From Echinometra lucunter (taxonomy: Eukaryota; Echinodermata; Echinoidea; Camarodonta; Echinometridae): a stretch of DNA of 64,000 bases. Below the pieces are notes generated by a model. That model was not told the DNA's origin. It ran no database searches and saw only the letters and a program-made list of their open reading frames with translations. Where the stretch lies: the NCBI GenBank assembly GCA_029962745.1, contig CM057156.1, positions 1,836,559 through 1,900,558 of the forward strand, in the 5' to 3' direction. Numbering within the stretch: position 1 is the stretch's first letter; each line of letters starts with the position of its first letter. Shown piece by piece: positions 15,031 through 55,900 of this stretch. The position numbers were made by a program, and so were the translations under genes.

Positions 15031-15681
15031 ACACTCTTTAAAAAATGGGTAAATTTAGTTGGGCAACACATTGTTGGTTAGAATTTTGCTCAAAGCTGTG
15101 CAAATCTTGCCCAAATCTGGTCAAGACCAATTGACCAATTTGTGTATTAAAACAAATTTTGCTCAACTGTTCGTCATATTCTTACCAAAAGCTGTGGTCA
15201 CATTGAAGCTGGGCAAAATTTACTCTTACAGTTGGTAAATTCTATACAGAAGTTACTTTATAATCTTGGGCAAACGTAACCACATTTGTGTAAATCGTTG
15301 CCCAAAATGTGTACAAAAGTGTTTCACAAATACAAGACGGAGAAATTTGCCAACTCCACTCTTAGAAAGTTGATTAAAATTATTTGGGCATTAGTTGATG
15401 GTTGGTCAAGAAATTCTCAAAAGTTGGGTTATTCTAACCCAAATTTGTCAAAATTAATGTTATTCCAATATATTAGAGATAAAGTTACCAACAGGAGTTA
15501 AGAACAGTTTACCAAGTAGTTGGGTTATTGTTAGTGAGTTGGGTAAAAGTTAGCTGGGTAGCTGAAGGTTGGTCAGGAATTAGCCAAAGGTTTGGCTACA
15601 AATTACCCAGAAAAAATGGTCTCCCTACCGACGGCCATTATTATGGTGCCAAAGACATGAATAAAATAATGATAGAGTTGA

Positions 15682-16240
15682 GTATTCCCAACATCCCTTA
15701 CCAAACTTTTCTTTCCCAGCTCTTAAGTTTTAGGAGTCATGGTTTTCAAAGAAAGAAATTGAATACGATAGAATGTATTCCCAACATCCCTTACCAGACT
15801 TTTCCTTCCCAGCTCTTAGGTTTAAGGAGTCATGGTTTTCAAAGAAAGAAATAGAATACGATAGAATGTATTCCCAACATCCCTTACCAAACTTTTCCTT
15901 CCCAGCTCTTACGTCTTAGGAGTCATGGTTTTCAAAGAAAGAAATAGAATACGATAGAATGTATTTCCAACATCCCTTACCAAACTTTTCCTTCCCAGCT
16001 CTTAGGTTTTAGGAGTCATGGTTTTCAAAGAAAGAAAGAGAATACGATAGAATGTATTCCCAACATCCCTTACCAAACTTTTCCTTCCCAGCTCTTACGT
16101 TTTAGGAGTCATGGTTTTCAAAGAAAGAAATAGAATACGACAGAATGTATTCCCAACATCCCTTACCAAACTTTTCCTTCCCAACTCTTAGGTTTTAGGA
16201 GTCATGGTTTTTGAAGGAAGAAATAGAATACGATAAAATG
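15682..16240 (+). repeat. six-copy 93-bp tandem repeat
   Basis: Units begin GTATTCCCAACATCCC at 15682, 15775, 15868, 15961, 16054 and 16147, exactly 93 bases apart, with only a few substitutions between units. Although 93 is a multiple of three, no frame stays open across the array, so it is not a protein repeat. Its right end passes into the purine-rich block. Confidence 0.92.
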
Positions 16241-33109: not shown

Positions 33110-33915
33110 ACTTAAACTTGCTTAATCTCAGATATTAAGACGAGAGGACTAATTCCATTGTAAACCACTTAGAAGACAGTCTAATTAATCCTTAGTCATC
33201 TCAAAACATTGAGGTTCACTTCACCTATAAAGGATAAAACGAAAGCGACTGTGAAATAAAGAAAAATAAAAAATAAAAATAAAATCATGCTTGCCGTGTG
33301 TGTTAACCGTTTTGAACTTTGGTTTTGCTACAACACATTTTGACACCATGATGTACAGACAATACCAACGAGAATGATATTAATTTTTCTTTACATCATG
33401 GATTCTAAATATAAAAATTGACGCTGAAAACGACGGTGCCGTCTGATTTCTATCTTACTTTAAAAAAAAAAAAAAAAAAAAAAACATTTTACGACAATCT
33501 TAAAGCAGTGCCATACGTAAATAGTTCTACTGTAGACCATCCATGATCACAAACAAAGACGTCAGAAACCGGACAAATCAAGAATTGCTGAGCCAAATAA
33601 TTACCAGACCCGGAGGCTGGCCAGCTTGGTCACGTATCATAAGAATGTCAGATAACCGTTGCCAAGACAGCACTCACCTGGAAACCAAAAGAAAGAAACA
33701 AACATCAGATCTATAGCTGGGACTGAAGTTGGAAGAAAGCAGCATAAAAAAGAATGCGATTTATACTTTAGTTATTATGTTAATTAACAGCTAATACTAT
33801 GATATGGTTTCGTTTTTGTTTTTGTTTTGTTCTTGTTTTTGTTTTTGTTTTTTGTGGGTTTTTTTTTGGGGGGGGGGGTTGTATTACATAATACTTAATG
33901 TTTATATAAAAATAC
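33110..33915. other. unclassified sequence with poly-A and T/G runs
   Basis: A poly-A run is at about 33462-33484, and a TTTTTG-repeat/G-run region at about 33808-33880. On the minus strand, TTTCTTTTGGTTTCCAG is followed immediately by GTGAGT at about 33673, that is, adjoining acceptor and donor motifs. No coding exon is supported there because all three frames after the acceptor contain stops. Confidence 0.4.
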
Positions 33916-34090
33916 CTATTCATATTTACGTTTATGTTTGAAAAAGAACAGAATATTTATTCATATCAGTGAAGTTTAACAAATTAAAATACAATATATA
34001 CATTTTTGCAATGCAGAGGAGATTGTAGTCATTCAGTTGTTTCAACTAACTTAATTGTCTTTTGGATTGAATGAGATTGTGATGGTTGTT

Positions 34091-34150
34091 TATTTCTGTG
34101 ATTGATTGATTAATTGATTGATTGATTGATTGGCTGATTGGTTGATTGAG
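34091..34150. repeat. (GATT)n microsatellite
   Basis: TGATTGATTGATT units; the same array is at about 43650-43712 in copy 2. Confidence 0.9.
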
Positions 34151-34685
34151 TGCTTGATTTTTCTACATGACCATGCGGGGTGTGATTCCTTTTTTTCTGA
34201 AATTCTAAGTATGCAAGCGTATACATGTCGAAAATAAAATATTTCAAGACAATCATTAAAGTATGAAATTGCTAACTCAAGCATGACATGTAATTAATGA
34301 GATATATCAGAATATATATATATATTCACAACCAAGGACATTCCTTAATTCATTGTCATTATAAAATTGTCATTTAATGAAAATCTGTATGCCTTTACAG
34401 TTTACACCATTCTCAATCTCGCTGATACAGGTGTACCAACAAAAACAAAAGCGATTCTTGTCAAGATTGAATTTTGCACCCTTTCACAAAAGTTACCTTT
34501 GCTCGCTCAAGCGTACAATAGTTTAAGACTTTTTGATTTTCTTTGATTTTTATCCAGAAAATGTGCATTACGGTGCCTTGGATGAGGAGTTTAAATTATC
34601 TTTTTACCCATAAAAATGTACTATATGACGGCAATTTGATGAAGAGTCTATCCGAGTCCACACAAAATGTTGATATAAAGAGAAG

Positions 34686-34793
34686 ATGGTGGTGATGTTT
34701 AATGTGAAATTGATGACGACGATGATGATAAAGATGATGGCGATGATCATGATGATGATGACGACGACGATAATGATGATGACGATGATCAGT
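34686..34793. repeat. (GAT)n microsatellite
   Basis: Degenerate GAT/GAC units. The His-rich minus-strand frame across it is an artefact. The counterpart in copy 2 is at about 44244-44350. Confidence 0.9.
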
Positions 34794-35081
34794 GATATAC
34801 AATTAAATATTTCACTGATTTATTCCATTTTCAGGCAACATGCAGGTTATGTTACACAAACAAACGAAACAGGAAAGAAATCTGGTGTATATATGAGTAT
34901 AGCTGGAAGAAAACATGTTCCTGTTAAATAGAATTGCCCGTTGGCGCAAAATATGGGGCCAAAAACCTACCAAAGCAGTGAGAGATAAGATATATTCTTG
35001 AGTGAATTAACTTTGAATACTGAACATTTTTTGTCAAAACAAAATTTATGGTAGACTAATGGTTTTATGTAATTTCTTAAT

Positions 35082-35839
35082 ACACTCTAAAAATATTGGG
35101 CAAAAAATTCCCCAAATTTTATCCAACATGAGGATAATTATGTGTCCGACCAACAATTGGGTAAAAACAAACAGTTTGCATGATTTACTCAGTGTTGGGT
35201 AAAAAATAATACACCCAACTTTTACCCACAAGATTTTACCAGTCAAAAATTCTTGTCTTACCATGTCTGAGGACCATGCCTCGAACCAGTGCGTGCCATG
35301 ACATAGTGTCCTCAAGACCTAGATGCGCCAGCAATTGCGCCAGCGAGAGATCGTTGAGAGGGTATAAGGTCTTCTAATAATTATAACTCGAAACCTTGAT
35401 TAGCCTTACTCCCAGAATGCAAAATAACCAAATGTTGAAAAAAGTGTCCAAGTTTAATTGTACTTTTTTTTCCACTGGGTAAAATTGGGGTAAATAGTTT
35501 TTTTTTTTTTTTTTTTTTTTTTTGGGGGGGGGGGGGTGATCTGATTGCAACAAGGCCCGCAACAAGAAAAAGCCATGCACCCTTAAACTGCCCTGTAATG
35601 TCTAACAAAGTTTTTATTGGGTATATATACGTAGTAAATGATTGGGAGAAAATAACCCAGTTGTCGGACAAAATTACCCAGCAATAATTTCCCCATTACC
35701 GTTTACCCAACTAATTTTTGTATTTCATTGGGCAATTGCATGTAGTAAATAATTGGGTAGAAATAACCCAATTATTAAGAAAAATTTGCCTAATTTTGAT
35801 TTGCCCAGTCACACCTGCCCAACTTTTTTTTTACAGTGT
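35082..35839. mobile_element. ACACTCTAAAAA/TTGGGTAA foldback element
   Basis: The left end ACACTCTAAAAATATTGGGC is mirrored by GCCCAACTTTTTTTTTACAGTGT on the right. The arms carry many TTGGGTAA and TTACCCAA motifs. It is the same family type as 15031-17515 but lacks that element's large core. The counterpart in copy 2 is at 44638-45377. A T-run and G-run lie at about 35500-35537. Confidence 0.8.
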
Positions 35840-37504
35840 AGGACGAGGTATATGTGAATGCTGAGGAAATTGATGTAATATAAAAACATGGTGCAGGCGA
35901 ATACAGATATATAATTAAAAAAGTGATGCCGACGATGATCTGCAAGCTGAATAAATACACGAAATTGATAATTCGCAAAAAGAGAGTTCCTGTTAAAGTT
36001 TCTCCTCACTTGTCGAGGGTTTACAAAGATGCAACATTGCACGGTAATAATATTCTCAAACAGAAAAGAGAAACCAAGTAAGCAAGCAATGTAAATAATG
36101 ATTATGTTTATTAAAACTTTGTAAGAAAAGGAGTCGGAGTTAACGCGGTGGATTGATCGGAAACAATACAGTCTCAGAAAGTTGAAAAGATAAAGAATGA
36201 AGTGTGGAAAAAGATAGAAAAACAAAGACATCGCTTTGTTTATAGGAGACATTCTGGCTCGTAATCTATACAAAAACAAACATTAATAATGTACATTAAA
36301 TACCTGAACTGTGGAAAACATGCCCCATAAAAACTGCAGAAAATATTGAAAAGCACAATAAAATGTGCTTTTCCATCACTTCTATGAATTTGTCCATGAA
36401 AACTGTGTTTATCCCCCTTTTGTTAACAATAGTAGTTGGTCATGCAATAAAGGAACAAATATTTGCAGAACATAACAAGGCCTCGGCGTCATATGTCGGC
36501 TTCATGCATGAGATACTCTTTTAAACTCTTTCAACTTTGGTGCCTCGATTTCGAAAATTTGCCCTTAATGTATCAAGCATCCCATCTCTCATTTTTTTTT
36601 TGTTTACACACATTTTTCTAAAGTGCATTGCAAATTTATGGATTTTGCATTAAAAAGCCTATACATGGCTGTCTGCCAAAAAGAAGTCATGCAGAAAAAT
36701 TGAACCTTTCTCTATAAACCCTGCATTTGGGTTCGTGTGAATATTTACGCTGATTCTTTTTACATAGGTCTTCTTGTGTAATCATTTCCCCTCAAAGTCC
36801 TTTTACACACATACATGGGTCATAATTTCTGTTCATTCAAAGAGCTGAATGCTTCTATCCCATCTTTATTCGGGATGAAAAAGGCGCTCAAATATCCCCC
36901 TATCGGATCGAAAAGTGCCAAAATTTGTGAAAAGCATAGAAAAAACAACAACAACAACAACAAAAAAAAAACCTGATTGATATCTTGTCAAAGAAGTTTA
37001 GTTTTTCCCTTGTCGCTGTCAGGTGCAGACAGAATAGTTGTAAACTTACGTTGCGTATTGAAACATCCGTTCGTATAAGCAATTATTTTGTCAGGAAATT
37101 GAGAACATTTTAAGTTGCTTAATGTTTCAGAAAAAGGGAGGTAACTATACATGTTTTTAATTCTCAGATAATAAAAACTAGGCCCCAAGCTACTGAGTTA
37201 GGTATTCACACCTTTCAAGGAGCTCTTTCCACCGGGTAGGACACCTGGGAAGAGAATTGCGAGTGTAGGTCAATTTTTTTTTTACCAAGTGGCCATAGTG
37301 CTTCACTGTGTCTACTGTCTAGAACCCCTTGGCCTTCGCATCTCCAATCCTTGTAACGCTATTGTTCTTAGATAGCGGACCCCTGCATTTATCTTGATTT
37401 CTTGACTCAACTCCATTATTTTAATATTATCTAAGTAATATTTTATATTCTTTTTTTTGTATATTTGTCACACTTTCTATGTATCAGTTCTGATTTGTAT
37501 CATT
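35840..37504. other. unclassified sequence within copy 1
   Basis: No exon or repeat family is recognised. Frames such as 35809-36279 (minus) are disrupted by indels in the other copy (about 45400-47049), which argues against coding function. Confidence 0.5.
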
Positions 37505-37512
37505 ATTGTATC

Positions 37513-37751
37513 CAGGGCTGTATGCAGAAATTTTTTTCCGGGGGGAGGGGCAAGACATGTAAAATTTTTTCAAGAAGCTCAAAGCGAGGGAGCCAAGCGA
37601 CCGAGCTGGTCACGAGGGCGCGTTTGCATTTTTAAAAGTTGAAATTGAACGATTTGGTGCACACTTTTCGTGGATTTCGTGAGAATTTTCAGTAAAAATT
37701 TCGGGGGGGGGGGGAGAACTGCCCCTTGCCCCCCCGCTGCGTACGGCCATG
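37513..37751. mobile_element. hAT-like MITE, family 4
   Basis: The left end CAGGGCTGTATGCAG is paired with the right end CTGCGTACGGCCATG. The exact 8-bp target duplication ATTGTATC is at 37505-37512 and 37752-37759. It is 239 bp, with G- and C-runs near the ends like the other hAT-like elements here. Confidence 0.88.
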
Positions 37752-38041
37752 ATTGTATCCAGTGTTTGGTATTTGATTTCTTAATATATGCAGAAACTTC
37801 TGCAAAATATTCTTAGCACATTGCATTTCCGCTGCTTGCACCAATTTATGGAGTCATACGCACGGACTGATTTGGCAACCTATTACACTCATCATTTGGA
37901 TCTGAAAACGGAGCGGGGGGGGGGGGGGGGGAGGTACAAGCGAAGAAAAAAACAAGGATAAGGGAGGGAGGAGAAGAGGGTGAAGGGAGAGGGAAGGATA
38001 GAAGAAAAAGGAGAGGACTCAGAAAAGAATTCTAGAAGAAC

Positions 38042-38391
38042 CGGGGGGGGGGGGGCACTGCCAGTATACAAGGTGGACACCATATTATGCTCGTACACAA
38101 AAACGCGTAAAAGGGTTGCTTTTCACCTACGGGCGACATAGGCCTACGCGCGTGTAGAAAGGTTATCAAAACTGAAAAAATCAGGAAAAAGGGTATACTT
38201 TTAGCAGAAGGCTTACTTGAAAAGGGTACCTTTTCAGACTTGATTTGAAAATACTTGTTTAGGGTGAGGAAAACATGACAAAATACTTGTTTAGGGTATT
38301 CTGAGATCGAAGGCTAATTACTTGTTAAGGGTTCATTTTGAAAGTCCATGTATGGTGTCCACCTTGTAATGGCAGTCCCCCCCCCCCCCCG
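38042..38391. mobile_element. foldback element with GGGGGGCACTGCCA ends
   Basis: CACTGCCAGTATACAAGGTGG then ACACCATA is mirrored by TATGGTGTCCACCTTGTAATGGCAG, with G-run and C-run at the tips. Inside are direct repeats of ACTTGTTTAGGGT. The counterpart in copy 2 is at 47590-47940. Confidence 0.8.
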
Positions 38392-38399
38392 AAAGGCAG

Positions 38400-38555
38400 A
38401 AAGAAGATCGAAGATCGAAGATCGAAGAAGAAGAGAAGAAGAAGAAGAAAAAGAAAAGAAGAAGAAGAAGAAGAAGAAGAAGAAAAAGAAGAAGAAGAAG
38501 AAGAAGAAGAAGAAGAAGAAGATCGAAGAAGAAGAAGAAGAAGAAAGAAGAAGAA
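38400..38555 (+). repeat. (GAA)n array
   Basis: AGAAGAAG units with interspersed GATCGAA. Glu/Lys- and Ser/Phe-rich frames on both strands are artefacts. The counterpart in copy 2 is at 47949-48101 with a different internal length. Confidence 0.95.
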
Positions 38556-38781
38556 TACCTGACTTCTCTCCATTCCTTCCAGCAAAACAGATATTTGCCA
38601 TATAGTTTTTAAATTGCATATTAAATTATTAATTGATCTGTTTAGTTTGAAATCTATAATTTTGATGTTTTATATTGCATGTATTCTGCTCTAAAATGTT
38701 TAATTTCACGATATTTAATATGGATTTTGTATATACTTTGTTGGAAATGAGAAAAAATAAAAAACTGAAACTGAAAAACTG

Positions 38782-38932
38782 AAGAAGTCAAGAAGAAGAA
38801 GAAGAAGAAGAAAGAAGAAGAAGAAGAAGAGAAGAAGAAGAAGAAGAAGAGAAGAGAGAAGAAGAGAAGAAGAAGAAAGAAGAATAAGAAGAAGAAGAAG
38901 AAGAAGTAAGAGAAGAAGAGAAGATAAGAAAT
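38782..38932 (+). repeat. (GAA)n array
   Basis: A second GAA array, about 150 bases here but only about 65 bases at 48328-48393 in copy 2. Confidence 0.95.
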
Positions 38933-39439
38933 CCATTAATCTAATTTATACTTCTTGGAGTCTTTCATCATTGGGTATCATTCCACTTGAGGAGAAAATT
39001 TGCATTTTGAGTGGTTGATAGAATCTATCAAGTGGCCCAGATAAAAAGTTTTGATATTAAATCCATGTAGTAGGGCCTATAATCGGGTATAATCGCGGAT
39101 TATTTTTACCCCTCACTTTACAGTCGCCTCAAGTGCCTACCCTCGACTCCCGATCATAATCACGCAGCGTTATCAATGACGTCATCATCCTGACTACTGC
39201 AAATACCAGAACTGTTTTCAGCTGTCACACAGAGAATCCTACGATATTTCACTCTTTTGAATGCTCTGTAGTGACTGAAATGAAAGTGGATCGAGTTAAT
39301 GCTTTTTAATGACTTGGTTAGTGATTGAGAATACATTAATTATTTCATATTTTCCGCTTTCTGAGCTAAATATCTTAAAAAATATGTAGCAGCAATAGTC
39401 ACGTTGTGGTCCCACATGTAGGAATTGTGGAGGTTTGAC

Positions 39440-39800
39440 TAAGTTAGCTCACCCGTTACTGCGCCGCTACCCGTTCGGCTGCGAAGCTGAGACGAGACAT
39501 AGGTCTAGTCTAGAGTAGGTGAGACGTCTCACATATCCCAGCTCATCAAAAAATTCACGGCAATTCTCACCGTGTCAGATGTCTGTTTAATTAAAAGAAA
39601 ATATGGATATGGAATGATTGGTGAAAAGTGAAGAAAACATTTCCCGCTGCGCGTTGCGCTGCTTTATTTTTGGATTGTATGCTTGGTGGGCGGCTGGGCG
39701 CAGCTAGCCGTATAGGTTGCCCGTGCCGTCCCGTGGGATACAGTTCATGCTGGTTCAGCAGCGGCTGCAGCGCTGATCTGAGCCGTGAGTCGAGGAGAAG
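39440..39800 (+). promoter_or_regulatory. putative promoter/first exon of the KIAA0825-like gene (copy 1)
   Basis: A GC-rich, CpG-containing patch lies in AT-rich surroundings (CGCCGCTACCCGTTCGGCTGCG near 39460; GCTGCGCGTTGCGCTGC near 39647; GGCGGCTGGGCGCAG near 39690). A strong donor-like CC|GTGAGT is at 39784/39785. A frame from ATG 39628 or 39679 is open up to this donor and ends in phase 1, which matches exon A if exon A begins at 40390. Whether this is coding or 5'-untranslated cannot be decided. The predicted N-terminus shows no clear likeness to the human protein. Confidence 0.35.
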
Positions 39801-40389
39801 GGGGGGGAGAAAAAAAGTATAGTTCATTTTTCCCTAGGGAAAATGAGAACTAGGCCTATGCGTGACGTTATCAACGAAAACTGAACTATGCAGAGGAAAC
39901 GTCTGTTCTGGTTAAAGCTATTCATTTTCTTGTTGTGTACACTCCTAATGCAACAATCTCCATCCAGCTCTCATTTAGCTGCGTGGAAAAACAAAGACAA
40001 AAATGCCATCAAAATCACCCTTTCTAATGCTGGGTTACCTCTGCAAGCTACATTCTGAGTTTGCTAGTAATGAGCTAGGCAAGTCCACAGGGGTACGGGC
40101 AGTATAGTGTTGACTTGTGTTGAGATGATACATGCACATCTCGCCACAAGTGAGAATTATACTGGAAAAGGTTGTCAGATGTCTGTTTTATTAAAAGAAA
40201 ATATGCTGTACAAGTGCAAGTGCAGCATGTCCCCTATAGTATCGAGTCTTTTTTTTTTAGTAAGCCTTTCCAATTGTCTTTTTAACACAAAAACACTTTT
40301 GTCTATCATTGTTTGAATTATGCAGAACATGAGGTAAATCCTTATCACTGGCATCCACTATTCAAACTGAAATCTCTTTGAAGGTGTAG

Positions 40390-40523
40390 CTCAGATTCAG
40401 AATGTCTCATCAGTGTTTGCTGCCCTCCTTGACGGCAATGTTCCAGTATGGAATGCCAAGCATGGACAACTTGGAGATGGTCATTACAGATATTGATGAA
40501 CAACTGAAAAACAATGATAAAAA
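40390..40523 (+). pseudogene. KIAA0825: KIAA0825-like exon A, copy 1, frameshifted
   Basis: This is the same exon as 49854-49986, between an AG acceptor (GTGTAG) and a GTAAGA donor. It has one extra A: AATGCCAAGCATGG here against AATGCCAGCATGG in copy 2. The insertion shifts the frame after VPVWNA and produces a stop within about ten codons. Since it lies in a short A-run and copy 2 is intact, an assembly or sequencing error is the likeliest cause. Confidence 0.8.
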
Positions 40524-40572
40524 GTAAGATATTCATCACAGAGAGACAGGGAGAGAATGAAAGAGAGATGGA

Positions 40573-40618
40573 AGAAGGAAGAGCAAGAGAGAGAGAGAGA
40601 GAGAGAGAAAGAAAGAAG
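40573..40618 (+). repeat. (GA)n microsatellite
   Basis: A GA run in the intron; the counterpart in copy 2 is at about 50041-50075. Confidence 0.9.
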
Positions 40619-40971
40619 GAGAAAGAAGAAAAAGATGGTAATTGTGATATTGATATTCGATAATCATGATGATGACAATAGTCAGCTATGGTGTATGGCT
40701 CAGAAACTTGGAATGTGAAGACACTAGCAGAAAGGGTCATGAGGGGAACAGCAAGAACCATGCAGAATATGTATGATATCAAACTGTGCGTAGAAAGAAG
40801 ACGAATGAGCTCGTGGAAAGGTTCGGTTAGGTCGTGAAGAAGCTGGTGGGAGTGGTTAAGAATTGGGTTGAGATAGATAGTTCATGTGTTGAGAAGGGAA
40901 GCTGATGGGAGCGATGAAAAGAGTGTGGGATCAGTGGATGGCATAGGAGGAAGAGGACGACTAAAGATTAT

Positions 40972-41332
40972 GGCCAGAATTCACAAAGGTGGTTTAGATT
41001 TAGACCACAGTATATTTCATGGTATATTGTGCTTGATTTAGCGCATACACTTAGAAAGGTCCAATAATGAACACGTGTGTTTGGCATAGGATACTAGTTG
41101 CTATGGTTTAGACCACAGTTTACTCTAATTAATTCAAATAAACCGTGATTAAATTTGAATAAACTTTGTCTAAACCATAGCAATCACCCTGAACTGAGCG
41201 CCCTATGCCAAACGTTTGCGTTCATTATTGGACCTTTCTAAGTGTACGTGCTAAATCAAGCACACTTTAAATATACCATGAAATCTTCATAAACCGTGGT
41301 CTTATTCTAAACCACCTTTGTGAATTCTGGCC
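40972..41332. mobile_element. GGCCAGAATTCACAAAGG foldback MITE (copy 1)
   Basis: A near-perfect 361-bp palindrome. GGCCAGAATTCACAAAGGTG pairs with the complement at the right end. Inner pairs include CACTTAGAAAGGTCCAATAA against its complement and GGTTTAGACCACAGTTTA against TAAACTTTGTCTAAACC. It sits in the intron between exons A and B; the copy 2 counterpart is 50437-50799. Related ends occur at 53104-53270 and 59619-59646. Confidence 0.88.
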
Positions 41333-41647
41333 TACATGTATGGAAGGAGAAGGTGAAGAAAGAAAGTAGTAAGGACGGTCTAAAAGAAGAGGACATTCAA
41401 AACAAGAAGTGGAGGGAGGGAGTGGCATCATGGCGAGAAAGTCAGGGATCCTACATAAGAGAGGAAAGTGCTGACATTAATAAATGATGATAAAAATGAT
41501 AATGATCCTGATGGTGGTTATGATTAGTACTATAATATATGGATTTGTAGGGCTCATGGACCTTGGGATACAATTTCCTGAATACATTGTATTTTCATTA
41601 ATATTCCTAATTTAATCTGAGCTAATTTTATGACCATCTTTATCTAG

Positions 41648-41819
41648 GATTGAGGAGACACTTCAGAAGTTAGTGCAAGCTACGAACAGCCTGTCTCTTG
41701 ACAATAACTACACCAACATCAAGGATGCCATGGATAGTCTGATTCAGACACCTGTTCTAGAGGAGTGTGCATGTCTTACACCAGATTCTGAAGATGTTAA
41801 TAAGTTACTCAAAGCCATA
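41648..41819 (+). CDS. KIAA0825: KIAA0825-like exon B, copy 1
   Basis: 172 nt, same sequence as the exon at 51120-51291, acceptor CTAG and donor GTGAGT. It encodes IEETLQKLVQATNSLSLDNN at its start. It belongs to the probably redundant 9-kb copy. Confidence 0.8.
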
Positions 41820-42401
41820 GTGAGTATTTTATGTTTGTTGGCGATTTGATTAAATGGGTTGATGCGGTTTGCAAAGCATTTTCCTCGATTACATACTATA
41901 AAGATTGTGAGCTCAATGGATGGCCATAATGGATTGCTAAAGCTTCATTGCATGCAAATATGCTCCTGCCCTGTTCCACTGATAAACAGACCTTGAACGC
42001 AGTGAAAGATTTTTGTCACCAGAGAATATTTGTATGGACTGTTTACTCCAGGTTCTTCTAGTGAACCTCTTTTCTGGATCAGAATTATTGGTATGTAAAA
42101 AGATATTTCCTCAGAATCTATTTATTTACTTGAAAATATAGAATTGGTTATGTTTCAACATAGCACATTTTGCTTTGAAGTTGAGATGTAATGACACTAA
42201 CCCGTTGCTTTGATACAGGAATTGGTTGGTTCAAGTATTAGGCCTGTGGGAATGAAAACGTACAGTAGTCTAAGATTGGGAGAATCTAACTTGTTCATAT
42301 CGAATGTCAAATTTCATCTTTAGAAGTCAAATGTAAGGAATGGGATTACAATCTCCAGCTGATTAAAGTTCATGAAATGATCTGCATGATTGTCTCAATA
42401 G

Positions 42402-42566
42402 CTGCAGCATGCTGTGAATCATCCCAATTCCGAGTCGGTAATCTTTGAACAGCTGCTTGGCCTTGCATCGCACGAGGGTCTGGGTCTACCCATCCGTGCA
42501 CCCAAACCTAGCTATGTGGCTGCTTCTGCTATTTCTATCAATACCATCGGGGACTCGCTTGAACAG
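42402..42566 (+). CDS. KIAA0825: KIAA0825-like exon C, copy 1
   Basis: 165 nt, same as 51874-52038, acceptor AATAG and donor GTAAAA. It encodes LQHAVNHPNSESVIFEQLLG at its start. It belongs to the probably redundant copy. Confidence 0.8.
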
Positions 42567-42982
42567 GTAAAATTGCTTTATAGTCTTTAGATATTGATTT
42601 GCCCTTACTGCTCCATAGAGAGCATTGTAAATAGATTTTTGTTTAATATTACTCTCATAGAGTTGTAGGAATCACAATGATGAATATAAAGGGAAATGAG
42701 AAACTAAATAAATTGTTGAAAAAAATATCTAGAGTGTCATTGTCTCAGGTTCATGGTCACATCATACAGAGATCAGATCTCTGCCAGGGCTCGTTTCATA
42801 AAACTCGTTATCAATAACAAGTTGCAATAACTGTTATAAGCTACTGAAATCCTTGCATCTGATTGGCTGAGAGCAAATTTTTCATTGAAATTGAAATGGG
42901 GCCCAGAACACCAAAGTCCTTTTGCCATATTTTGCCATATTTTGCACTCTTTACCCAGGTGAAGTACATCAGAGCCGGTATT

Positions 42983-43482
42983 NNNNNNNNNNNNNNNNNN
43001 NNNNNNNNNNNNNNNNNNNNNNNNNNNNNNNNNNNNNNNNNNNNNNNNNNNNNNNNNNNNNNNNNNNNNNNNNNNNNNNNNNNNNNNNNNNNNNNNNNNN
43101 NNNNNNNNNNNNNNNNNNNNNNNNNNNNNNNNNNNNNNNNNNNNNNNNNNNNNNNNNNNNNNNNNNNNNNNNNNNNNNNNNNNNNNNNNNNNNNNNNNNN
43201 NNNNNNNNNNNNNNNNNNNNNNNNNNNNNNNNNNNNNNNNNNNNNNNNNNNNNNNNNNNNNNNNNNNNNNNNNNNNNNNNNNNNNNNNNNNNNNNNNNNN
43301 NNNNNNNNNNNNNNNNNNNNNNNNNNNNNNNNNNNNNNNNNNNNNNNNNNNNNNNNNNNNNNNNNNNNNNNNNNNNNNNNNNNNNNNNNNNNNNNNNNNN
43401 NNNNNNNNNNNNNNNNNNNNNNNNNNNNNNNNNNNNNNNNNNNNNNNNNNNNNNNNNNNNNNNNNNNNNNNNNNNNNNNNNN
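42983..43482. other. assembly gap (500 N)
   Basis: Exactly 500 N, a round number typical of a placeholder of unknown true length. The two 9-kb copies abut it on either side. Confidence 1.
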
Positions 43483-44637
43483 CTATTCATATTTACGTTT
43501 ATGTTTGAAAAGAACAGAATATTTATTATATCAGTGAAGTTTAACAAATTGAAATACAATATATACATTTTTGCAATGCAGAGGAGATTGTAGTCATTCA
43601 GTTGTTTCACTAACTTAATTGTCTTTGGATTGAATGAGATTGTGATGGTTTTTTATTTCTGTGATTGATTGATTAATTGATTGATTGATTGATTGGCTGA
43701 TTGGTGATTGAGTGCTTGATTTTTCTACATGACCATGCGGGGTGTGATTCCTTTTTTTCTGAAATTCTAAGTATGCAAGCGTATACATGTCGAAAATAAA
43801 ATATTTCAAGACAATCATTAAAGTATGAAATTGCTAACTCAAGCATGACATGTAATTAATGAGATATATCAGAATATATAATATTCACAACCAAGGACAT
43901 TCCTTAATTCATTGTCATTATAAAATTGTCATTTAATGAAAATCTGTATGCCTTTACAGTTTACACCATTCTCAATCTCGCTGATACAGGTGTACCAACA
44001 AAAACAAAAGCGATTCTTGTCAAGATTGAATTTTGCACCCTTTCACAAAAGTTACCTTTGCTCGCTCAAGCGTACAATAGTTTAAGACTTTTTGATTTTC
44101 TTTGATTTTTATCCAGAAAATGTGCATTACGGTGCCTTGGATGAGGAGTTTAAATTATCTTTTTACCCATAAAAATGTACTATATGACGGCAATTTGATG
44201 AAGAGTCTATCCGAGTCCACACAAAATGTTGATATAAAGAGAAGATGGTGGTGATGTTTAATGTGAAATTGATGACGACGATGATGATAAGATGATGGCG
44301 ATGATCATGATGATGATGACGACGACGATAATGATGATGACGATGATCAGTGATATACAATTAAATATTTCACTGATTTATTCCATTTTCAGGCAACATG
44401 CAGGTTATGTTACACAAACAAACGAAACAGGAAAGAAATCTGGTGTATATATGAGTATAGCTGGAAGAAAACATGTTCCTGTTAAATAGAATTGCCCGTT
44501 GGCGCAAAATATGGGCCAAAAACCTACCAAAGCAGTGAGAGATAAGATATATTCTTGAGTGAATTAACTTGAATACTGAACATTTTTTGTCAAAAACAAA
44601 TTTATGGTAGACTAATGGTTTTTATGTAATTTCTAAT

Positions 44638-45377
44638 ACACTCTAAAATATTGGGCAAAAAATTCCCCAAATTTTATCAACATGAGGATAATTATGTGTC
44701 CGACCAACAATTGGGGTAAAACAAACAGTTTGCATGATTTACTCAGTGTGGGTAAAAAATAATACACCCAACTTTTACCCAACAAGATTTACCCAGTCAA
44801 AAATTCTGTCTTACATGTCTGAGGACCATGCTCGAACCAGTGCGTGCCATGACATAGTGTCCTCAAGACCTAGATGCGCCAGCAATTGCGCCAGCGAGAG
44901 ATCGTTGAAGAGGGTATAGGTCTTCTAAATATATAAACTCGAAACCTTGATTAGCCTTACTCCCAGAATGCAAAATACCCAAATGTTGAAAAAAGTGTCC
45001 AAGTTTAATTGTACTTTTTTTCCACTGGGTAAATTGGGTAATAGTTTTTTTTTTTTTTTTTGGGGGGGGGGGGGGTGATCTGATTGCAACAAGGCCCGCA
45101 ACAAGAAAAAGCCATGCACCTTAAACTGCCCTGTAATGTCTAACAAAGTTTTTATTGGGTATATATACGTAGTAAATGATTGGGAGAAAATAACCCAGTT
45201 GTCGGACAAAATTACCCAGCAATAATTTCCCCATTACCGTTTACCCAACTAATTTTTGTATTTCATTGGGCAATTGCATGTAGTAAATAATTGGGTAGAA
45301 ATAACCCAATTATTAAGAAAAATTTGCCTAATTTTGATTTGCCCAGTCACACCTGCCCAACTTTTTTTTTACAGTGT
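44638..45377. mobile_element. ACACTCTAAAA/TTGGGTAA foldback element (copy 2)
   Basis: Counterpart of 35082-35839; shorter by small deletions, mainly in homopolymer runs. Confidence 0.8.
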
Positions 45378-47057
45378 AGGACGAGGTATATGTGAATGCT
45401 GAGGAAATTGATGTAATATAAAAACATGGTGCAGGCGAATACAGATATATAATTAAAAAAGTGATGCCGACGATGATCTGCAAGCTGAATAATACACGAA
45501 ATTGATAATGCGCAAAAAGAGAGTTCCTGTTAAGTTTCTCCTCACTTGTCGAGGGTTACAAAGATGCAACATTGCACGGTAATAAAGATTCTCAAAACAG
45601 AAAAGAGAAACCAAGTAAGCAAGCAATGTAAATAATGATTATGTTTATTAAAACTTTGTAAGAAAAGGAGTCGGAGTTAACGCGGTGGATTGATCGGAAA
45701 CAATACAGTCTCAGAAAGTTGAAAAGATAAAGAATGAAGTGTGGAAAAAGATAGAAAAACAAAGGACATCGCTTTTGTTTATAGGAGACATTCTGGCTCG
45801 TAATCTATACAACAAAACAACATTAATAATGTACATTAAATACCTGAACTGTGGAAAACATGCCCCATAAAAACTGCAGAAATATTGAAAAGCACAAATA
45901 AAATGTGCTTTTCCATCACTTCTATGAATTTGTCCATGAAAACTGTGTTTACCCCCTTTTGTTACATAATAGTAGTTGGTCATGCAATAAAGAACAAATA
46001 TTTGCAGAACATAACAAGGCCTCGGCGTCATATGTCGGCTTCATGCATGAGATACTCTTTTAACTCTTTCAACTTTGGTGCCATCGATTTCGAAAATTTG
46101 CCCTTAAATGTAATCAAGCATCCCATCTCTCATTTTTTTTTGTTTACACACATTTTTCTAAAGTGCATTGCAAATTTATGGATTTTGCAATTAAAAAGCC
46201 TATACATGGCTGTCTGCCAAAAAAGAAGTTCATGCAGAAAAATTGAACCTTTCTCTATAAACCCTGCATTTGGGTTCGTGTGAATATTACGCTGATTCTT
46301 TTTACATAGGTCTTCTTGTGTAATCATTTCCCCCTCAAAGTCCTTTTTACACACATACATGGTCATAATTTCTGTTCATTCAAAGAGCTGAATGCTTCTA
46401 TCCCATCTTTATTCGGGATGAAAAGGCGCTCAAATATCCCCCTATCGGATCGAAAAGTGCCAAAATTTGTGAAAAGCATAGAAAAAAAAACAACAACAAC
46501 AACAAAAAAAAACCTGATTGATATCTTGTCAAAGAAGTTTAGTTTTTCCCTTGTCGCTGTCAGGTGCAGACAGAATAGTTGTAAACTTACGTTGCGTATT
46601 GAAACATCCGTTCTTATAAGCAATTATTTTTGTCAGGAAATTGAGAACATTTTAAGTTGCTTAATGTTTCAGAAAAAGGGAGGTAACTATACATGTTTTT
46701 AATTCTCAGATAATAAAAACTAGGCCCCAAGCTACTGAGTTAGGTATTCACACCTTTCAAGGAGCTCTTTCCACCGGGTAGGACACCTGGGAAGAGAATT
46801 GCGAGTGTAGGTCAATTTTTTTTTTTTACCAAGTGGCCATAGTGCTTCACTGTGTCTACTGTCTAGAACCCTTGGCCTTCGCATCTCCAATCCTTGTAAC
46901 GCTATTGTTCTTAGATAGCGGACCCCTGCATTTATCTTGATTTCTTGACTCAACTCCATTATTTTAATATTATCTAAGTAATATTTTATATTCTTTTTTT
47001 TTTGTATATTTGTCACACTTTCTATGTATCAGTTCTGATTTGTATCATTATTGTATC

Positions 47058-47304
47058 CAGGGCTGTATGCAGAAATTTTTTCCGGGGGGAGGGGCAAGAC
47101 ATGTAAAATTTTTTCAAGAAGCTCAAAAGCGAGGGAGCCAAGCGACCGAGCTGGTCACGAGGGCGCGTTTGCATTTTAAAGTGAAATTGAACGATTTGGT
47201 GCACACTTTTCGTGGATTTCGTGAGAATTTCAGTAAAAATTTCGGGGGGGGGGGGGGGGAGGAGAACTGCCCCTGCCCCCCCCCCCCCGCTGCGTACGGC
47301 CATG
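47058..47304. mobile_element. hAT-like MITE, family 4 (copy 2)
   Basis: Counterpart of 37513-37751, with the same target duplication ATTGTATC at 47050-47057 and 47305-47312. Length differs through G- and C-run variation. Confidence 0.88.
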
Positions 47305-47589
47305 ATTGTATCCAATGTTTGTATTTGATTTCTTAATATATGCAGAAACTTCTGCAAAATATTCTTAGCACATTGCATTTCCGCTGCTTGCACCAATAAT
47401 TATGGAGTCATACTCACGGACTGATTTGGCAACCTAGTACAGCTCATCATTTGGATCTGAAAACGGAGCGGGGGGGGGGGGAGGTACAAGCGAAAGAAAA
47501 AAAAAGGATAAGGAGGAGGAGAAGAGGGTGAAGGAGAGGGAAGGATAGAAGAAAAAGGAGAGGACTCAGAAAAAGAATTCTAGAAGAAC

Positions 47590-47940
47590 CGGGGGGGGGG
47601 GGCACTGCCAGTATACAAGGTGGACACCATATTATGCTCGTACACAAAAACGCGTAAAAAGGGTTGCTTTTCACCTACGGGCGACATAGGCCTACGCGCG
47701 TGTAGAAAGGTTATCAAAACTGAAAAAATCAGGAAAAAAGGGTATACTTTTAGCAGAAGGCTACTTGAAAAGGGTACCTTTTCAGACTTGATTTGAAAAT
47801 ACTTGTTTAGGGTGAGGAAAACATGACAAAATACTTGTTTAGGGTATTCTGAGATCGAAGGCTAATTACTTGTTAAGGGTTCATTTTGAAAGTCCATGTA
47901 TGGTGTCCACCTTGTAATGGCAGTCCCCCCCCCCCCCCCG
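47590..47940. mobile_element. foldback element with GGGGGGCACTGCCA ends (copy 2)
   Basis: Counterpart of 38042-38391. Confidence 0.8.
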
Positions 47941-47948
47941 AAAGGCAG

Positions 47949-48101
47949 AAAAGAAGATCGAAGATTGAAGATCGAAGAAGAAGTAGAAGAAGAAGAAGAA
48001 AAAGAAGAAGAAGAAGAAGAAGAAGAAGAAGAAGAAGAAGAAGAAGAAGAAGAAGAAGAAGAAGAAGAAGAAGATCGAAGAAGAAGAAGAAGAAGAAGAA
48101 T
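47949..48101 (+). repeat. (GAA)n array (copy 2)
   Basis: Counterpart of 38400-38555. It is more homogeneous, with an uninterrupted GAA run of about 75 bases. Confidence 0.95.
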
Positions 48102-48327
48102 ACTGACTTCTCCATTTCCAGCAAAACAGATAATTTGCCATATAGTTTTAAATTGCAATATTAAATTATTAATTGATCTGTTTAGTTTGAAATCTATAAT
48201 TTTGATGTTTTATATTGCATGTATTCTGCTCTAAATGTTTAATTTCACGATATTTATATGGATTTTGTATATACTTTGTTGGAAATGAGAAAAAATAAAA
48301 AACTGAAAACTGAAAAACTGAAAGAAG

Positions 48328-48393
48328 TCAAGAAGAAGAAGAAAGAAGAAGAAGAAGAAGAAGAAGAAGAGAAGAAGAAGAAGAAGATGAAGA
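48328..48393 (+). repeat. (GAA)n array, contracted (copy 2)
   Basis: Counterpart of 38782-38932 but less than half as long. Confidence 0.9.
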
Positions 48394-48904
48394 AATCTTA
48401 ATCTAATTTATACCTTCTTGGAGTCTTCATCATTGGTATCATTCCACTTGAGGAGAAAATTTGCATTTTGAGTGGTTGATAGAATCTATCAAGTGGCCCA
48501 GATAAAAAGTTTTGATATTAAATCCATGTAGTAGGGCCTATAATCGGGTATAATCGCGGATTATTTTTACCCCTCACTTTACAGTCGCCTCAAGTGCCTA
48601 CCCTCGACTCCCGATCATAATCACGCAGCGTTATCAATGACGTCATCATCCTGACTACTGCAAATACCAGAACTGTTTTCAGCTGTCACCAGAGAATCCT
48701 ACGATATTTCACTCTTTTGAATGCTCTGTAGTGACTGAAATGAAAGTGGATCGAGTTAATGCTTTTTAATGACTTGGTTAGTGATTGAGAATACATTAAT
48801 TATTTCATATTTTCCGCTTTCTGAGCTAAATATCTTAAAAAATATGTAGCAGCAATAGTCACGTTGTGGTCCCACATGTAGGGAATTGTGGAGGTTTGAC
48901 TAAG

Positions 48905-49262
48905 TTAGCTCACCCGTTACTGCGCCGCTACCCGTTCGGCTGCGAAGCTGAGACGAGACATAGGTCTAGTCTAGAGTAGGTGAGACGTCTCACATATCCC
49001 AGCTCATCAAAAAATTCACGGCAATTCTCACCGTGTCAGATGTCTGTTTAATTAAAAGAAAATATGGATATGGAATGATTGGTGAAAAGTGAAGAAAACA
49101 TTTCCCGCTGCGCGTTGCGCTGCTTTATTTTTGGATTGTATGCTTGGTGGGCGGCTGGGCGCAGCTAGCCGTATAGGTTGCCCGTGCCGTCCCGTGGGAT
49201 ACAGTTCATGCTGGTTCAGCAGCGGCTGCAGCGCTGATCTGAGCCGTGAGTCGAGGAGAAGG
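48905..49262 (+). promoter_or_regulatory. putative promoter/first exon of the KIAA0825-like gene (copy 2)
   Basis: Counterpart of 39440-39800. The open frame from ATG 49089 or 49140 runs to the donor CC|GTGAGT at 49245/49246 in phase 1. This joins in frame to exon A at 49854. Coding status is uncertain; the GC-rich composition fits a CpG-type promoter or first exon. Confidence 0.35.
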
Positions 49263-49853
49263 GGGGGGGGGAGAAAAAAAGTATAGTTCATTTTTCCCTA
49301 GGGAAAATGAGAACTAGGCCTATGCGTGACGTTATCAACGAAAACTGAACTATGCAGAGGAAACGTCCGTTCTGGTTAAAGCTATTCATTTTCTTGTTGT
49401 GTACACTCCTAATGCAACAATCTCCATCCAGCTCTCATTTAGCTGCGTGGAAAAACAAAGACAAAAATGCCATCAAAATCACCCTTTCTAATGCTGGGTT
49501 ACCTCTGCAAGCTACATTCTGAGTTTGCTAGTAATGAGCTAGGCAAGTCCACAGGGGTACGGGCAGTATAGTGTTGACTTGTGTTGAGATGATACATGCA
49601 CATCTCGCCACAAGTGAGAATTATACTGGAAAAGGTTGTCAGATGTCTGTTTTATTAAAAGAAAATATGCTGTACAAGTGCAAGTGCAGCATGTCCCCTA
49701 TAGTATCGAGTCTTTTTTTTTTTAGTAAGCCTTTCCAATTGTCTTTTTAACACAAACACTTTTTGTCTATCATTGTTTGAATTATGCAGAACATGAGGTA
49801 AATCCTTATCACTGGCATCCACTATTCAAACTGAAATCTCTTTGAAGGTGTAG

Positions 49854-49986
49854 CTCAGATTCAGAATGTCTCATCAGTGTTTGCTGCCCTCCTTGACGGC
49901 AATGTTCCAGTATGGAATGCCAGCATGGACAACTTGGAGATGGTCATTACAGATATTGATGAACAACTGAAAAACAATGATAAAAA
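49854..49986 (+). CDS. KIAA0825: KIAA0825-like exon A
   Basis: 133 nt. Two acceptor choices exist: GTGTAG before 49854 (phase 1 entry) or GATTCAG before 49865. The donor is AAAAA|GTAAGA, phase 2. It encodes NVSSVFAALLDGNVPVWNAS then MDNLEMVITDIDEQLKNNDK. The second half matches the human N-terminal segment around SDIDEKIEQN as I remember it, so this exon lies close to the protein start. Confidence 0.85.
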
Positions 49987-52900
49987 GTAAGATATTCATC
50001 ACAGAGAGACAGGGAGAGAATGAAAGAGAGATGGAAGAAGGAAGAGCAAGAGAGAGAGAGAGAGAGAGAGAAAGAAAGAAGGAGAAAGGAAGAAAAAGAT
50101 GGTAATTGTGATATTGATATTCGATAATCATGATGATGACAATAGTCAGCTATGGTGTATGGCTCAGAAACTTGGAATGTGAAGACACTAGCAGAAGGGG
50201 TCATGAGGGGAACAGCAAGAACCATGCAGAATATGTATGATATCAAACTGTGCGTCAGAAAGAAGACGAGTGAGCTCGTGGAAAGGTTCGGTTAGGCCGT
50301 GAAGAAGCTGGTGGGAGTGGTTAAGAATTGGGTTGAGATAGATAGTTCATGTGTTGAGAAGGGAAGCTGATGGGAGCGATGAAAAGAGTGTGGGATCAGT
50401 GGATGGCATAGGAGGAAGAGGACGACTAAAGATTATGGCCAGAATTCACAAAGGTGGTTTAGATTTAGACCACAGTATATTTCATGGTATATATGCGCTT
50501 GATTTAGCGCATACACTTAGAAAGGTCCAATAATGAACACGTGTGTTTGGCATAGGATACTAGTTGCTATGGTTTAGACCACAGTTTACTCTAATTAATT
50601 CAAATAAACCGTGATTAAATTTGAATAAACCTTAGTCTAAACCATAGCAATCACCCTGAACTGAGTGCCCTATGCCAAACGTTTGCGTTCATTATTGGAC
50701 CTTTCTAAGTGTACGTGCTAAATCAAGCACACTTTAAATATACCATGAAATCTTCATAAACCGTGGTCTTATTCTAAACCACCTTTGTGAATTCTGGCCT
50801 ACATGTACATGTATGGAAGGATAAGGTGAAGAAAGAAAGTAGTAAGGACGGTCTAATAGAAGAGGACATTCAAAACAAGAAGTGGAGGGAGGGAGTGGCA
50901 TCATGGCGAGAAAGTCAGGGATCCTACATAAGAGAGGAAAATGCTGACATTAATAAATGATGATAAAAATGATAATGATCCTGATGGTGGTATGATTAGT
51001 ACTATAATATATGGATTTGTAGGGCTCATCGACCTTGGGATACAATTTCCTGAATACATTGTATTTTCATTAATATTCCTAATTTAATCTGAGCTAATTT
51101 TATGACCATCTTTATCAAGGATTGAGGAGACACTTCAGAAGTTAGTGCAAGCTACGAACAGCCTGTCTCTTGACAATAACTACACCAACATCAAGGATGC
51201 CATGGATAGTCTGATTCAGACACCTGTTCTAGAGGAGTGTGCATGTCTTACACCAGATTCTGAAGATGTTAATAAGTTACTCAAAGCCATAGTGAGTATT
51301 TTATGTTTGTTGGCGATTTGATTAAATGGGTTGATGCGGTTTGCAAAGCATTTTCCTCGATTACATACTATAAAGATTGTGAGCTCAATGGATGCCATAA
51401 TGGATTGCTAAAGCTTCAATGCACGCAAATATGCTCCTGCCCTGTTCCACTGATAAACAGACCTTGAACGCAGTGAAAGATTTTTGTCACCAGAGAATAT
51501 TTGTATGGACTGTTTACTCCAGGTTCTTCTAGTGAACCTCTTTTCTGGATCAGAATTATTGGTATGTAAAAAGATATTTCCTCAGAATCTATTTATTTAC
51601 TTGAAAATATAGAACTGGTTATGTTCTCAACATAGCACATTTTGCTTTGAAGTTGAGATGTAATGACACTAACCCGTTGCTTTGATACAGGAATTGGTTG
51701 GTTCAAGTATTAGGCCTGTGGGAATGAAAACATACAGTAGTCTAAGATTGGGAGAATCTAACTTGTTCATATCGAATGTCAAATTTCATCTTTAGAAGTC
51801 AAATGTAAGGAATGGGATTACAATCTCCAGCTGATTAAAGTTCATGAAATGATCTGCATGATTGTCTCAATAGCTGCAGCATGCTGTGAATCATCCCAAT
51901 TCCGAGTCGGTAATCTTTGAACAGCTGCTTGGCCTTGCATCGCACGAGGGTCTGGGTCTACCCATCCGTGCACCCAAACCTAGCTATGTGGCTGCTTCTG
52001 CTATTTCTATCAATACCATCGGGGACTCGCTTGAACAGGTAAACTTTGCCTTATAGTCTTTAGATATTGATTTGCCCTTACTGCTCCATAGAGAGCTTGT
52101 AAATAGATTTTTGTTTAATATTACTCTCATAGAGTTGTAGGAATCACAATGATGAATATAAAGGGAAATGAGAAACTAAATAAATTGTTGAAAAAAATAT
52201 CTAGAGGTGTCATTGTCTCAGGGTTCATGGTCACATCATACAGAGATCAGATCTCTGCCAGGGCCTCGTTTCATAAAACTCGTTATCAATAACAAGTTGC
52301 AATAACTGTTATAAGCTACTGAAATCCTTGCATCTGATTGGCTGAGAGCAAATTTGTCATTGAAATTGAAATGGGGCCCAGAACACCAAAGTCCTTTTGC
52401 CATATTTTGCCATATTTTGCACTCTTTACCCAGGTGAAGTACATCAGAGCCGGTATTCTGAAAAGTGTGTTATCTTTTATCTTATCTTCACTGTGTTAAT
52501 TGTCATAACAAATAACGCGTACTTATGGTTGGTATAAACTGCACAAATAACCAGCACACAAGACAAAATGCCCGATGTGAGCCAATGGCGTACGCTATTT
52601 CTGATTGCACAGATAACACGATTTTCAGAATACCGGCTCTGTACATGAACATCAGTACCTGACTATTGTGAAAAACATGATTGAGCTCCTTATCCTGGAA
52701 GCCCAGGTTAATCCATGAAAATTATCCAAAAAAGATACTTTATAAGTCCATTTGTCGTTGATTTTTATTTTATACCATGCTATTCCTCCGTTTTCTCTGC
52801 CAGGAGAATGACACATTATGGGAGGAGATCCGATCTCGTCTGAAGCGTTACTTCCTTGACAAGCTCCATGCCATCAAGGTATCAGGACCTGGTGAATGGA

Positions 52901-55900
52901 TAGGACCACTCTCTAAATCCAGACAGGTTCAGCGTATTGAATGTCTGCAGAGCCTGTGTATCCTCTATCCTATCAAAGAGGTGTGGAACAGTTATCATGT
53001 CCTAGCCTCAGACAAGGTAATGCAATTGTGCTTCGTTTGTGATTGCATAATTATCACCTGCCTTTATTCCTTTTCCAGTTATCTGAAAATTCTTGGATAC
53101 TCTGACCGGATTCACAAAAGAGGTTTAAACCATGGGGTAGTTTAAACTGCTGTAAGTGTACTAAAGTAAGCAAAAGTTGGCGCAAAAAGATAATTGGACT
53201 AGATTCTGTGCACACATACGCTTTATAAAAACCCATGAGGGGGTTTAAACCTCTTTTGTGAATTCCAGCCTCTGTGTTACATAGGTACACTATACATGTA
53301 TCTGGAAAAAAAAAAAAAAAAAAGAGAAAGAACTCGTGTTGAATTGCAGGTTTACTTTGTATGGGTAAGGCCTGCTTTCCATGATGTGTACATTTTGCAA
53401 GTATATTTTTTCTGATATCCTTAACATGAGACGTTTTTATGCCTCTGCCAGCCGTAGGTGGTGCCGGAGGCATTATGTTTTCGGGTCGTCCGTCCGTCCG
53501 TCTGTCCGTTCGGTCTCAAGGTCAAAGGTCAAAGGTCATAGAAGTCATGTACATAGAAATGGTTCGTTCTTGCGATCACTCAACCATTTGACAGATCAAC
53601 TTCAAACTTGGCTCTTGTATGCATATGGGAGGGACAATGATCTGATTAGATTTTGGGGTCTCAAGGTCAAAGGTCAAAGGCATATAGGTCATTATGTACA
53701 TAGAAATGGTTCATTCTGGTGATAACTCAACCATTTACAGATCAACTTCAAACTTGGCTCATGTATGCATATGGAAGGGACAATGATCTGATTAAATTTT
53801 GGGGTCTCAAGGTCAAAGGTCAAATGTCATAGAAGTCATTATATACATGAAACTTGCTTGTTCTTGAGATAAATCAACTCTGTGATGGTTAAACTTCAAA
53901 CTTGGCTCATGTATGCATATGGAAAGGGCAATAGTCTCATTAGATTTGGGGGTCACAAGGTCGAAGGTCAAGGTTAAAGATGTTATTGTATAAATGAAAA
54001 TAAATCAACATGAATGTGCCATATATTTCTGATCTGGCAATGGCGGAGGCATAAATTTCGACTGTGCGTGGTTGAGGATTCATCTAGTTTTGTTTTTCTT
54101 TTTACCAAGTTCAAAATGATAGAATGAATCTCCTCAAAGGAATTCTCTTGTTTACTGTCCTTTCTTTTAATATCACTTCACTTGCATCTGCTGTATACAG
54201 GTGGCTTCATTCTTGCGAGAGAACCTTTGCAGTTCCAACCTTGACGCAGCGGAGCCTCGGCAGCCCGTGACCTTGCAGTCCATCGCAGACAAACTCCAGA
54301 GACTCACCCCTCACTTCCATGTCATGCTGGAGGATGAGTGTGCCCTCTATTTAGCGGACGTCTTTGAAGGAGAGGTGAACTTCCTGCAGGCTGTTCAGGA
54401 GATTTATCTCTCGCAGCTCCAGGAGGAGGTGGCCTCCATGATGGAGGAAGCCTGGGAAGGCATCAGAAGGGGTGGAGCCAGAGGAACATCTAATGGTAGC
54501 GCCACAAAGAGCATTGGGGCCAGTGATTGGTTGAACGGAGGACAGGATCATCATGGCAAAGAGCAAACCAAGAAGAAGTCTGTTCTTGAAGGTAAAGATA
54601 TGACAGGGATCTTATCACTTAACATGTACCATATATTTATTCCCTCAACATTCGTCTTTAGGGCGCAAATATTCTAATTTAGTAAGGCACAAATATTCTA
54701 ATTCTGTAACGATAAGCGCCTCTAAACCCCCAAACCAACCAACCAACCAACCTTTAAGTCCTTTTACAACTTCATCTAGCTTGATATTGATTTGGATGTG
54801 TTAGGTGCTGAGAGGTCTTAATATTTGAGTATCATGACTAAAAATCTGTTTAGCAAGAAGTTCAATTTACCTTCTGAATTTCCATGATTAAGAATGGAAC
54901 TGATTGACTAATAGTTATTTTGAATTATGCAATAAGATTATGATTGATAGAGGTGATACTGCAAAAAGGGTGAAATGATTGTACATGTAAAGTATAGTCA
55001 TACAACATATCGTACATGATAAAATAAATTTTGAAATTATTAGTTAACTTTTTAATGATGCATATATGTAATGCATATCAAGTGTCTAATCATTCGGTTT
55101 TTCTGCAATCAGATTCCATACTAATGAGCCAAGATGACATCCGTCATTACATGACAATTGTAACATTGCTGCATGACCTGAACCAACGTCTATGTCAGCT
55201 ATCCCAGCATGCAACATGGGAGGGAGCCCCGCTCTTTAAACCACAAGCCCATGGCAAAGGAAACCTCAGAGGTCAGTGGCTTACCAGTATTAGTATATAC
55301 AGGCTTGTCATTATTGATAGTGCTTTTCCTGAGGGCCCTGCAAATATAAAAGATAAACTGGAGTTCTGGTCACATGATCATAATATGAAAGAAACTGTCC
55401 CAAAGCAGCTGGGAGAGTTAGATTAGTTGTATATAAACACGGGTGTCTCGTGTGAGATTTAGAGATTATCGAATTGATAAGAAATTGACTTTCTTTCCCC
55501 CAGAAGGTACTTGCACTTCACAGAGAAAGAAGTATATGGGACCACACAAAATTCTGCCATGGATGTTACCCCTGAACTTTTCAGCTTTTTCTTGTCATAT
55601 TTCCGTTATGAGGGCATTTGAAGAACAATCCTTTCAAGGGGACATTTTTACTATGATATTCTTCCTAGCTGACATGGAAAGAATGAAAATGCTCACAAAG
55701 TATTTTTATGCATCTGCCCACCGAAGGTGGGTGCTGGAGGCATGTTTTCAAGTTGTCCGTCCATCTGTCCTGTTTTTGATTTTAACGTTAACTTAAGAAC
55801 AATTTGACAGATCAACTTCAAATTTGGCTCATGTATGCATACGGTAGGGACGATGATTTGAGTAGATTTTGGGATCACAAGGTCAAAGGTCATAGAGGTC

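Follow-up and report, generated by a model that had tools for sequence, protein, structure and literature searches.

The 64,000-nt stretch of DNA analysed here (the window) contains a sole run of N, exactly 500 N long (42983–43482), which is flanked by two direct copies of a sequence of roughly 9 kb. Self-BLAST of the window on the same strand pairs nucleotides 33916–38853 with 43483–48394 and nucleotides 38865–42982 with 48331–52457, giving lengths of 9,067 bases for copy 1 and 8,975 bases for copy 2. The left copy edge falls between nucleotides 33915 and 33916 (AAATAC/CTATTC), and the right copy edge between 52457 and 52458 (GGTATT/CTGAAAA). Between the end of copy 1 and the start of copy 2 there are 500 N and no sequenced junction, which is missing data rather than disproof. 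The self-BLAST matches reach the gap without a non-matching tail at either of the gap-side contig ends. Together with the edge sequences, they place the 9-kb direct copies predicted to meet exactly at a 500-N gap correctly to the base. The collinearity that had been described as extending through microsatellites is likewise observed, in that these arrays are common to both copies, although their lengths differ. The coordinates of all features discussed below are collected in Table 1.

Table 1 Features of the two copies, the gap and the flanking sequence, numbered from the first base of the window
Feature	Position	Strand	Basis or remark
T9 G11 run	33859..33878	+	In the flank of copy 1, 37 bp ahead of the contig 2 start
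Copy 1, right-hand end of contig 1	33916..42982	+	Self-match and alignments; final base adjoins the N run
Exon A, copy 1 (172 nt)	41648..41819	+	Open frame between splice-like AG and GTGAGT
Exon B, copy 1 (159 nt)	42408..42566	+	68.8% identity to P0001 over 48 residues
Placeholder gap	42983..43482		Exactly 500 N
Copy 2, left-hand end of contig 2	43483..52457	+	Collinear with copy 1; self-match and alignments
Noisy overlap part (pairs with 33916–38935)	43483..48402	+	Ends at AAG microsatellite
Cleaner overlap part (pairs with 38936–42982)	48403..52457	+	Separate alignment
Exon A, copy 2	51120..51291	+	Letter-identical to copy 1
Exon B, copy 2	51880..52038	+	Directly precedes exon D; letter-identical to copy 1
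Inverted-terminal-repeat (MITE-like) element, 197 bp	52445..52641		TACAT on both sides; complete after copy 2
Exon D, single copy, unique sequence	52804..53028	+	Start after AG; end approximate (tblastn)
Exon E, same gene, single copy	54198..54605	+	Ends approximate; P0003 and P0004 matches

Several other repeats are present in the window. An internally repeated family occupies nucleotides 53512–54001, 55789–56708 and 61128–61757, around and downstream of the later exons of the gene described below, with copies ~145 bp apart that are roughly 75–86% alike within and between these places. A minisatellite at 15650–16240 has copies 93 bp apart that are about 93–95% alike in the longest matches. 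Related dispersed repeats at 11587–12225 and 31589–33109 are about 80–90% alike, and a near-tandem pair (32253–32618 and 32736–33109) is 89% alike.

Two exons are supported in each copy

The introns, microsatellites and short inverted-repeat elements give the impression of an animal-like genome. Protein searches with the gene that spans the right-hand side of the copies produced four unnamed relatives in all (P0001–P0004). In the public proteins P0001 and P0002, the residues encoded by exon B run straight into those encoded by exon D, and exon D follows copy 2 only. These two proteins begin at or near exon B and are silent on anything upstream. Exon E is matched by P0003 (82% over 134 residues) and by P0004 (35% over 92 residues) in tblastn searches. 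One conjectural name for the gene is KIAA0825. Pfam searches with the joined draft, ten single stretches of the window, P0001 and P0002 returned nothing above cut-offs.

Exon A has no tblastn match with any of P0001–P0004; its assignment is supported by an open frame, ends that resemble splice sites and a phase compatible with exon B. The acceptor of exon B may alternatively sit 6 nt upstream. Two differences between the copies lie close to these exons and could be either allelic variants or errors: the base before the acceptor AG of exon A (41645 and 51117; copy 1 has TAG and copy 2 AAG) and the bases immediately past the GTAAA donor of exon B (42572 and 52044).

The original prediction had three exons, A to C, doubled by the repeat. 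Exons A and B are found in each copy, but a third exon is not. A scan in the phase required by exon A, restricted to segments of 75–400 nt with a GTRAG donor and therefore blind to exons beyond these limits or broken by consensus errors, yielded 34 open segments for copy 1 as against 9 for copy 2, and no translation was common to both. Two weak candidates for the third exon (39629–39784 and 40075–40149) were dropped, as they came from a scan whose phase did not suit exon A.

Reading frame also bears on the chimeric A-B-C-A-B-C gene model that had been anticipated. With two exons per copy, A plus B amounts to 331 nt (1 modulo 3), and the order A-B-A-B-D is thrown out of frame, with a stop at codon 2 of the second A. 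Exon B comprises 53 whole codons, and A-B-B-D stays open. Judged from the frames, an in-frame false gene model would be A-B-B-D, with exon B counted twice, and a missed exon could alter this model.

Differences between the copies are concentrated in one-base indels

The numbers of substitutions and indels that separate the copies vary with the scoring scheme. A gap-tolerant global alignment has 29 substitutions and 138 indel events, 111 of them one-base, across 8,891 aligned positions, which corresponds to a substitution rate of 0.33% (29/8,891). Under default BLAST scoring the two matches together contain 45 mismatches (25 + 20) and 136 gap openings (106 + 30), and there is a slight overlap between them in copy 2. 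A MAFFT global pair has 164 mismatching columns and 88 indel events (70 one-base), with many of its mismatches occurring in short runs that are explicable by one-base shifts. The earlier description of the differences as dominated by one-base indels is thus partly dependent on scoring, and applies far more strongly to the left half than to the right.

Natural repeats of the window served as controls. Five BLAST pairs were chosen from those listed, with starts at 15682, 53563, 32253, 55829 and 11787, and have mismatch/gap-opening counts of 24/0, 51/14, 22/14, 75/22 and 25/9, respectively. These sum to 197 mismatches and 59 gap openings, as compared with 45 and 136 for the copies. A wider set comprises 42 non-self pairs located away from the block, at E up to 1e-20, many of which overlap one another; scored differently from the first BLAST, it contains 2016 mismatches and 263 gap openings. 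Under BLAST scoring, natural repeats therefore have the opposite balance to the copies. Under gap-tolerant scoring, eight chosen control pairs have 101 substitutions and 134 indel events as compared with 29 and 138 for the copies (Fisher 4.8e-8, for pairs that are not independent), and here the copies and controls differ in degree only, with the same direction. The contrast probably shrinks as gap-tolerant scoring converts the mismatch runs of old repeats into gaps. The copies thus lack the substitution-to-indel balance of natural repeats, which is that of an old duplication, and a very recent duplication combined with consensus errors is still compatible with the counts.

The overlap has a noisy part and a cleaner part

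One-base indels of the kind left by consensus errors are clear across the left 4.9 kb of the copies and weak across the right 4.0 kb, with the noise level changing at an AAG microsatellite (38790–38924 in copy 1, 48330–48394 in copy 2). We aligned the two parts separately, and their indel sum is consequently slightly above the count from the whole alignment. The left part (4,857 aligned bases) carries 94 one-base indels (1.9%) among 118 indel events, and 11 substitutions, of which 4 are transitions. The right part (4,032 aligned bases) carries 20 one-base indels (0.5%) among 25 indel events, and 18 substitutions, of which 11 are transitions. The split was picked after binned counts had been seen, so the p-values are descriptive: Fisher 2.9e-6 for the contrast of 11:118 with 18:25, and a binomial p of 0.014 against one third for the transitions of the right part, with no transition excess on the left. 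Counted as 31-mers, 2,594 of 4,990 from the left of copy 1 are present in the matching part of copy 2, and 3,058 of 4,017 from the right. We read the left-part differences as consensus error, and those of the right part, which are rich in transitions as is expected of such variants, are probably allelic SNPs.

This division bears on whether the artefact could be purely allelic (heterotype), such that contig 1 ends in one haplotype and contig 2 starts in the other, with consensus errors playing a lesser part. The right 4.0 kb speaks for this reading through its 18 substitutions to 25 indel events, as against 11 to 118 on the left, and through its 11 transitions among 18 substitutions; the TACATG copy number at 41333 and the length of the AAG array are also unequal between the copies. 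The left 4.9 kb, where 11 substitutions sit amid 94 one-base indels and have the look of consensus error, speaks against it, as does the overall rate of 0.33% substitutions, which would be low for a species of high heterozygosity. We hold a purely allelic origin to be possible as a sub-case of false duplication, where it takes a minority share of the probability assigned to that explanation below. Homotype error and allelic difference are probably both present.

Three features were tried as pointers to the copy that bears the errors. Array register is mixed: the period-3 and period-4 arrays at 34099–34159 and 34711–34789 maintain their register in copy 1 and are shortened by one base in copy 2, near its start, and the GAA/AAG arrays at 38.4–38.9 kb are more out of register in copy 1 than in copy 2. 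The latter finding indicates that errors are not limited to one contig end. Exons A and B are uninformative, being identical in both copies, and relatives elsewhere in the window are equally so, given that the masked copies have a single 34-base match there.

Break points lie at ordinary contig stops

Both inner copy edges fall on the gap, an arrangement that any unmerged overlap of contig ends would yield. The original prediction took the coincidence of both break points with the gap as an argument against true duplication. The coincidence is found at both inner edges, but geometry alone is not decisive, as a real tandem repeat could match it: contigs may likewise terminate at the edges of such a repeat when the assembler breaks there. 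Further weight for a false duplication comes from the excess of indels and from the break points themselves.

At the right edge, the final 13 nt of copy 1 are the start of the MITE-like element, whose full length is present after copy 2. A relative about 90% alike lies at 5389–5607 on the opposite strand, and the inverted ends of the short element family to which these two members (52445–52641, 5389–5607) belong are CAGRGCCGGTATTCT. At the left edge, the T9–G11 run closely precedes the base where contig 2 begins. The element start and the T9–G11 run are ordinary stopping places for contigs and may have caused the contig breaks. The two contigs stop at different places, as is expected of independently ended, overlapping contigs.

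A real and recent 9-kb tandem duplication with two internal exons would account for the copies if assembly had stopped at the repeat edges, scaffolding had then joined across the break and the copies differ mainly through sequencing error. A repeat that exceeds read length may indeed lead an assembler to stop contigs at its edges, which would likewise place both edges on the gap, and few substitutions between copies are what a recent event should leave. However, the junction would then lie 13 nt inside the MITE-like element, and neither contig end has a non-matching tail, whereas contigs that stop at a branch usually extend beyond it. The A-B-A-B-D order would also break the frame, an objection that loses force if the partial duplication is silent and goes untranslated. 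We consider a real duplication improbable on this evidence. Likewise very unlikely is a genuine, very recent 9-kb tandem duplication that takes in two internal exons of an obscure metazoan gene and whose in-frame splice form, A-B-B-D, would double the 53-residue exon B.

Chance or dispersed-repeat similarity beside the gap has a negligible probability. Nothing in the body of the match favours it, and contact with a dispersed element is confined to the right edge. The match is collinear over 9 kb, a length and order that rule out chance, and once low-complexity sequence is masked, a single stretch of 34 bases elsewhere in the window matches the copies at E up to 1e-5.

An unmerged contig overlap as the probable source of the duplication

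Our preferred reading is that the 9-kb duplication is false, in either homotype or heterotype form, and arose from an unmerged contig overlap (probability about 0.93). The prediction of a probable false duplication is supported by the geometry, the indel excess, the break points, the identity of exons A and B between the copies and the presence of the next exon after copy 2 only. Under this model, a single locus of ~9 kb would have been assembled twice, as the right end of contig 1 and the left end of contig 2. The ends would have stayed unmerged because they differ, through consensus errors across the left 4.9 kb, the unequal microsatellite and, probably, a degree of allelic variation across the right 4.0 kb. 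A scaffolder would then have set the contigs adjacent with a fixed 500-N spacer, whereupon the overlap became an apparent tandem duplication. We infer this contig history, along with the read type and the part played by the scaffolder, from the arrangement of the copies. A 500-N spacer makes Hi-C scaffolding plausible at most. Placement of 500 Ns between contigs after 3D-DNA and Juicebox is reported for one scaffold in a passage of another study (PMC10320752).

The locus most likely represents a known kind of assembly error and not biology, and its importance is one of curation only. Gene annotation here could include two exons in duplicate, and work on recent duplications or copy number in this species could take in a false positive. 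Direct copies at a fixed-size N run, with one-base indels in excess of substitutions, offer a cheap flag for such cases genome-wide.

Comparison with known duplication classes

The copies resemble a true partial-gene tandem duplication in being direct, adjacent and exon-bearing. They differ from one in that the inner junction is 500 N, A-B-A-B breaks the frame and the differences on the left are error-like.

Hallmarks of false duplications have been set out by Ko and colleagues. These hallmarks include gaps between the copies, and falsely duplicated exons are shown (PMC9516828). Heterotype ‘flanking contigs’ and combined hetero/homotype cases, as presented in sections of two papers (PMC8081667, PMC9516828), share with this locus the false doubling of exons and a gap between the copies on one scaffold, and may share the joining of one side to one haplotype and of the other side to the other. 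The locus differs from the heterotype cases in its left half, where alleles do not account for the excess of one-base indels.

A section of the Vertebrate Genomes Project paper describes false duplication by ‘overlapping sequences at contig boundaries’ (PMC8081667). Classes are separated there by read coverage and k-mer counts, and the SNP-like differences in the right half of our copies are unlike the homotype class as that section portrays it. The locus otherwise resembles this overlap-at-contig-boundary class, with tandem copies, a gap between them and both inner edges at the gap, a length of ~9 kb that is plausible for a long read, and a consensus quality that varies along the copies.
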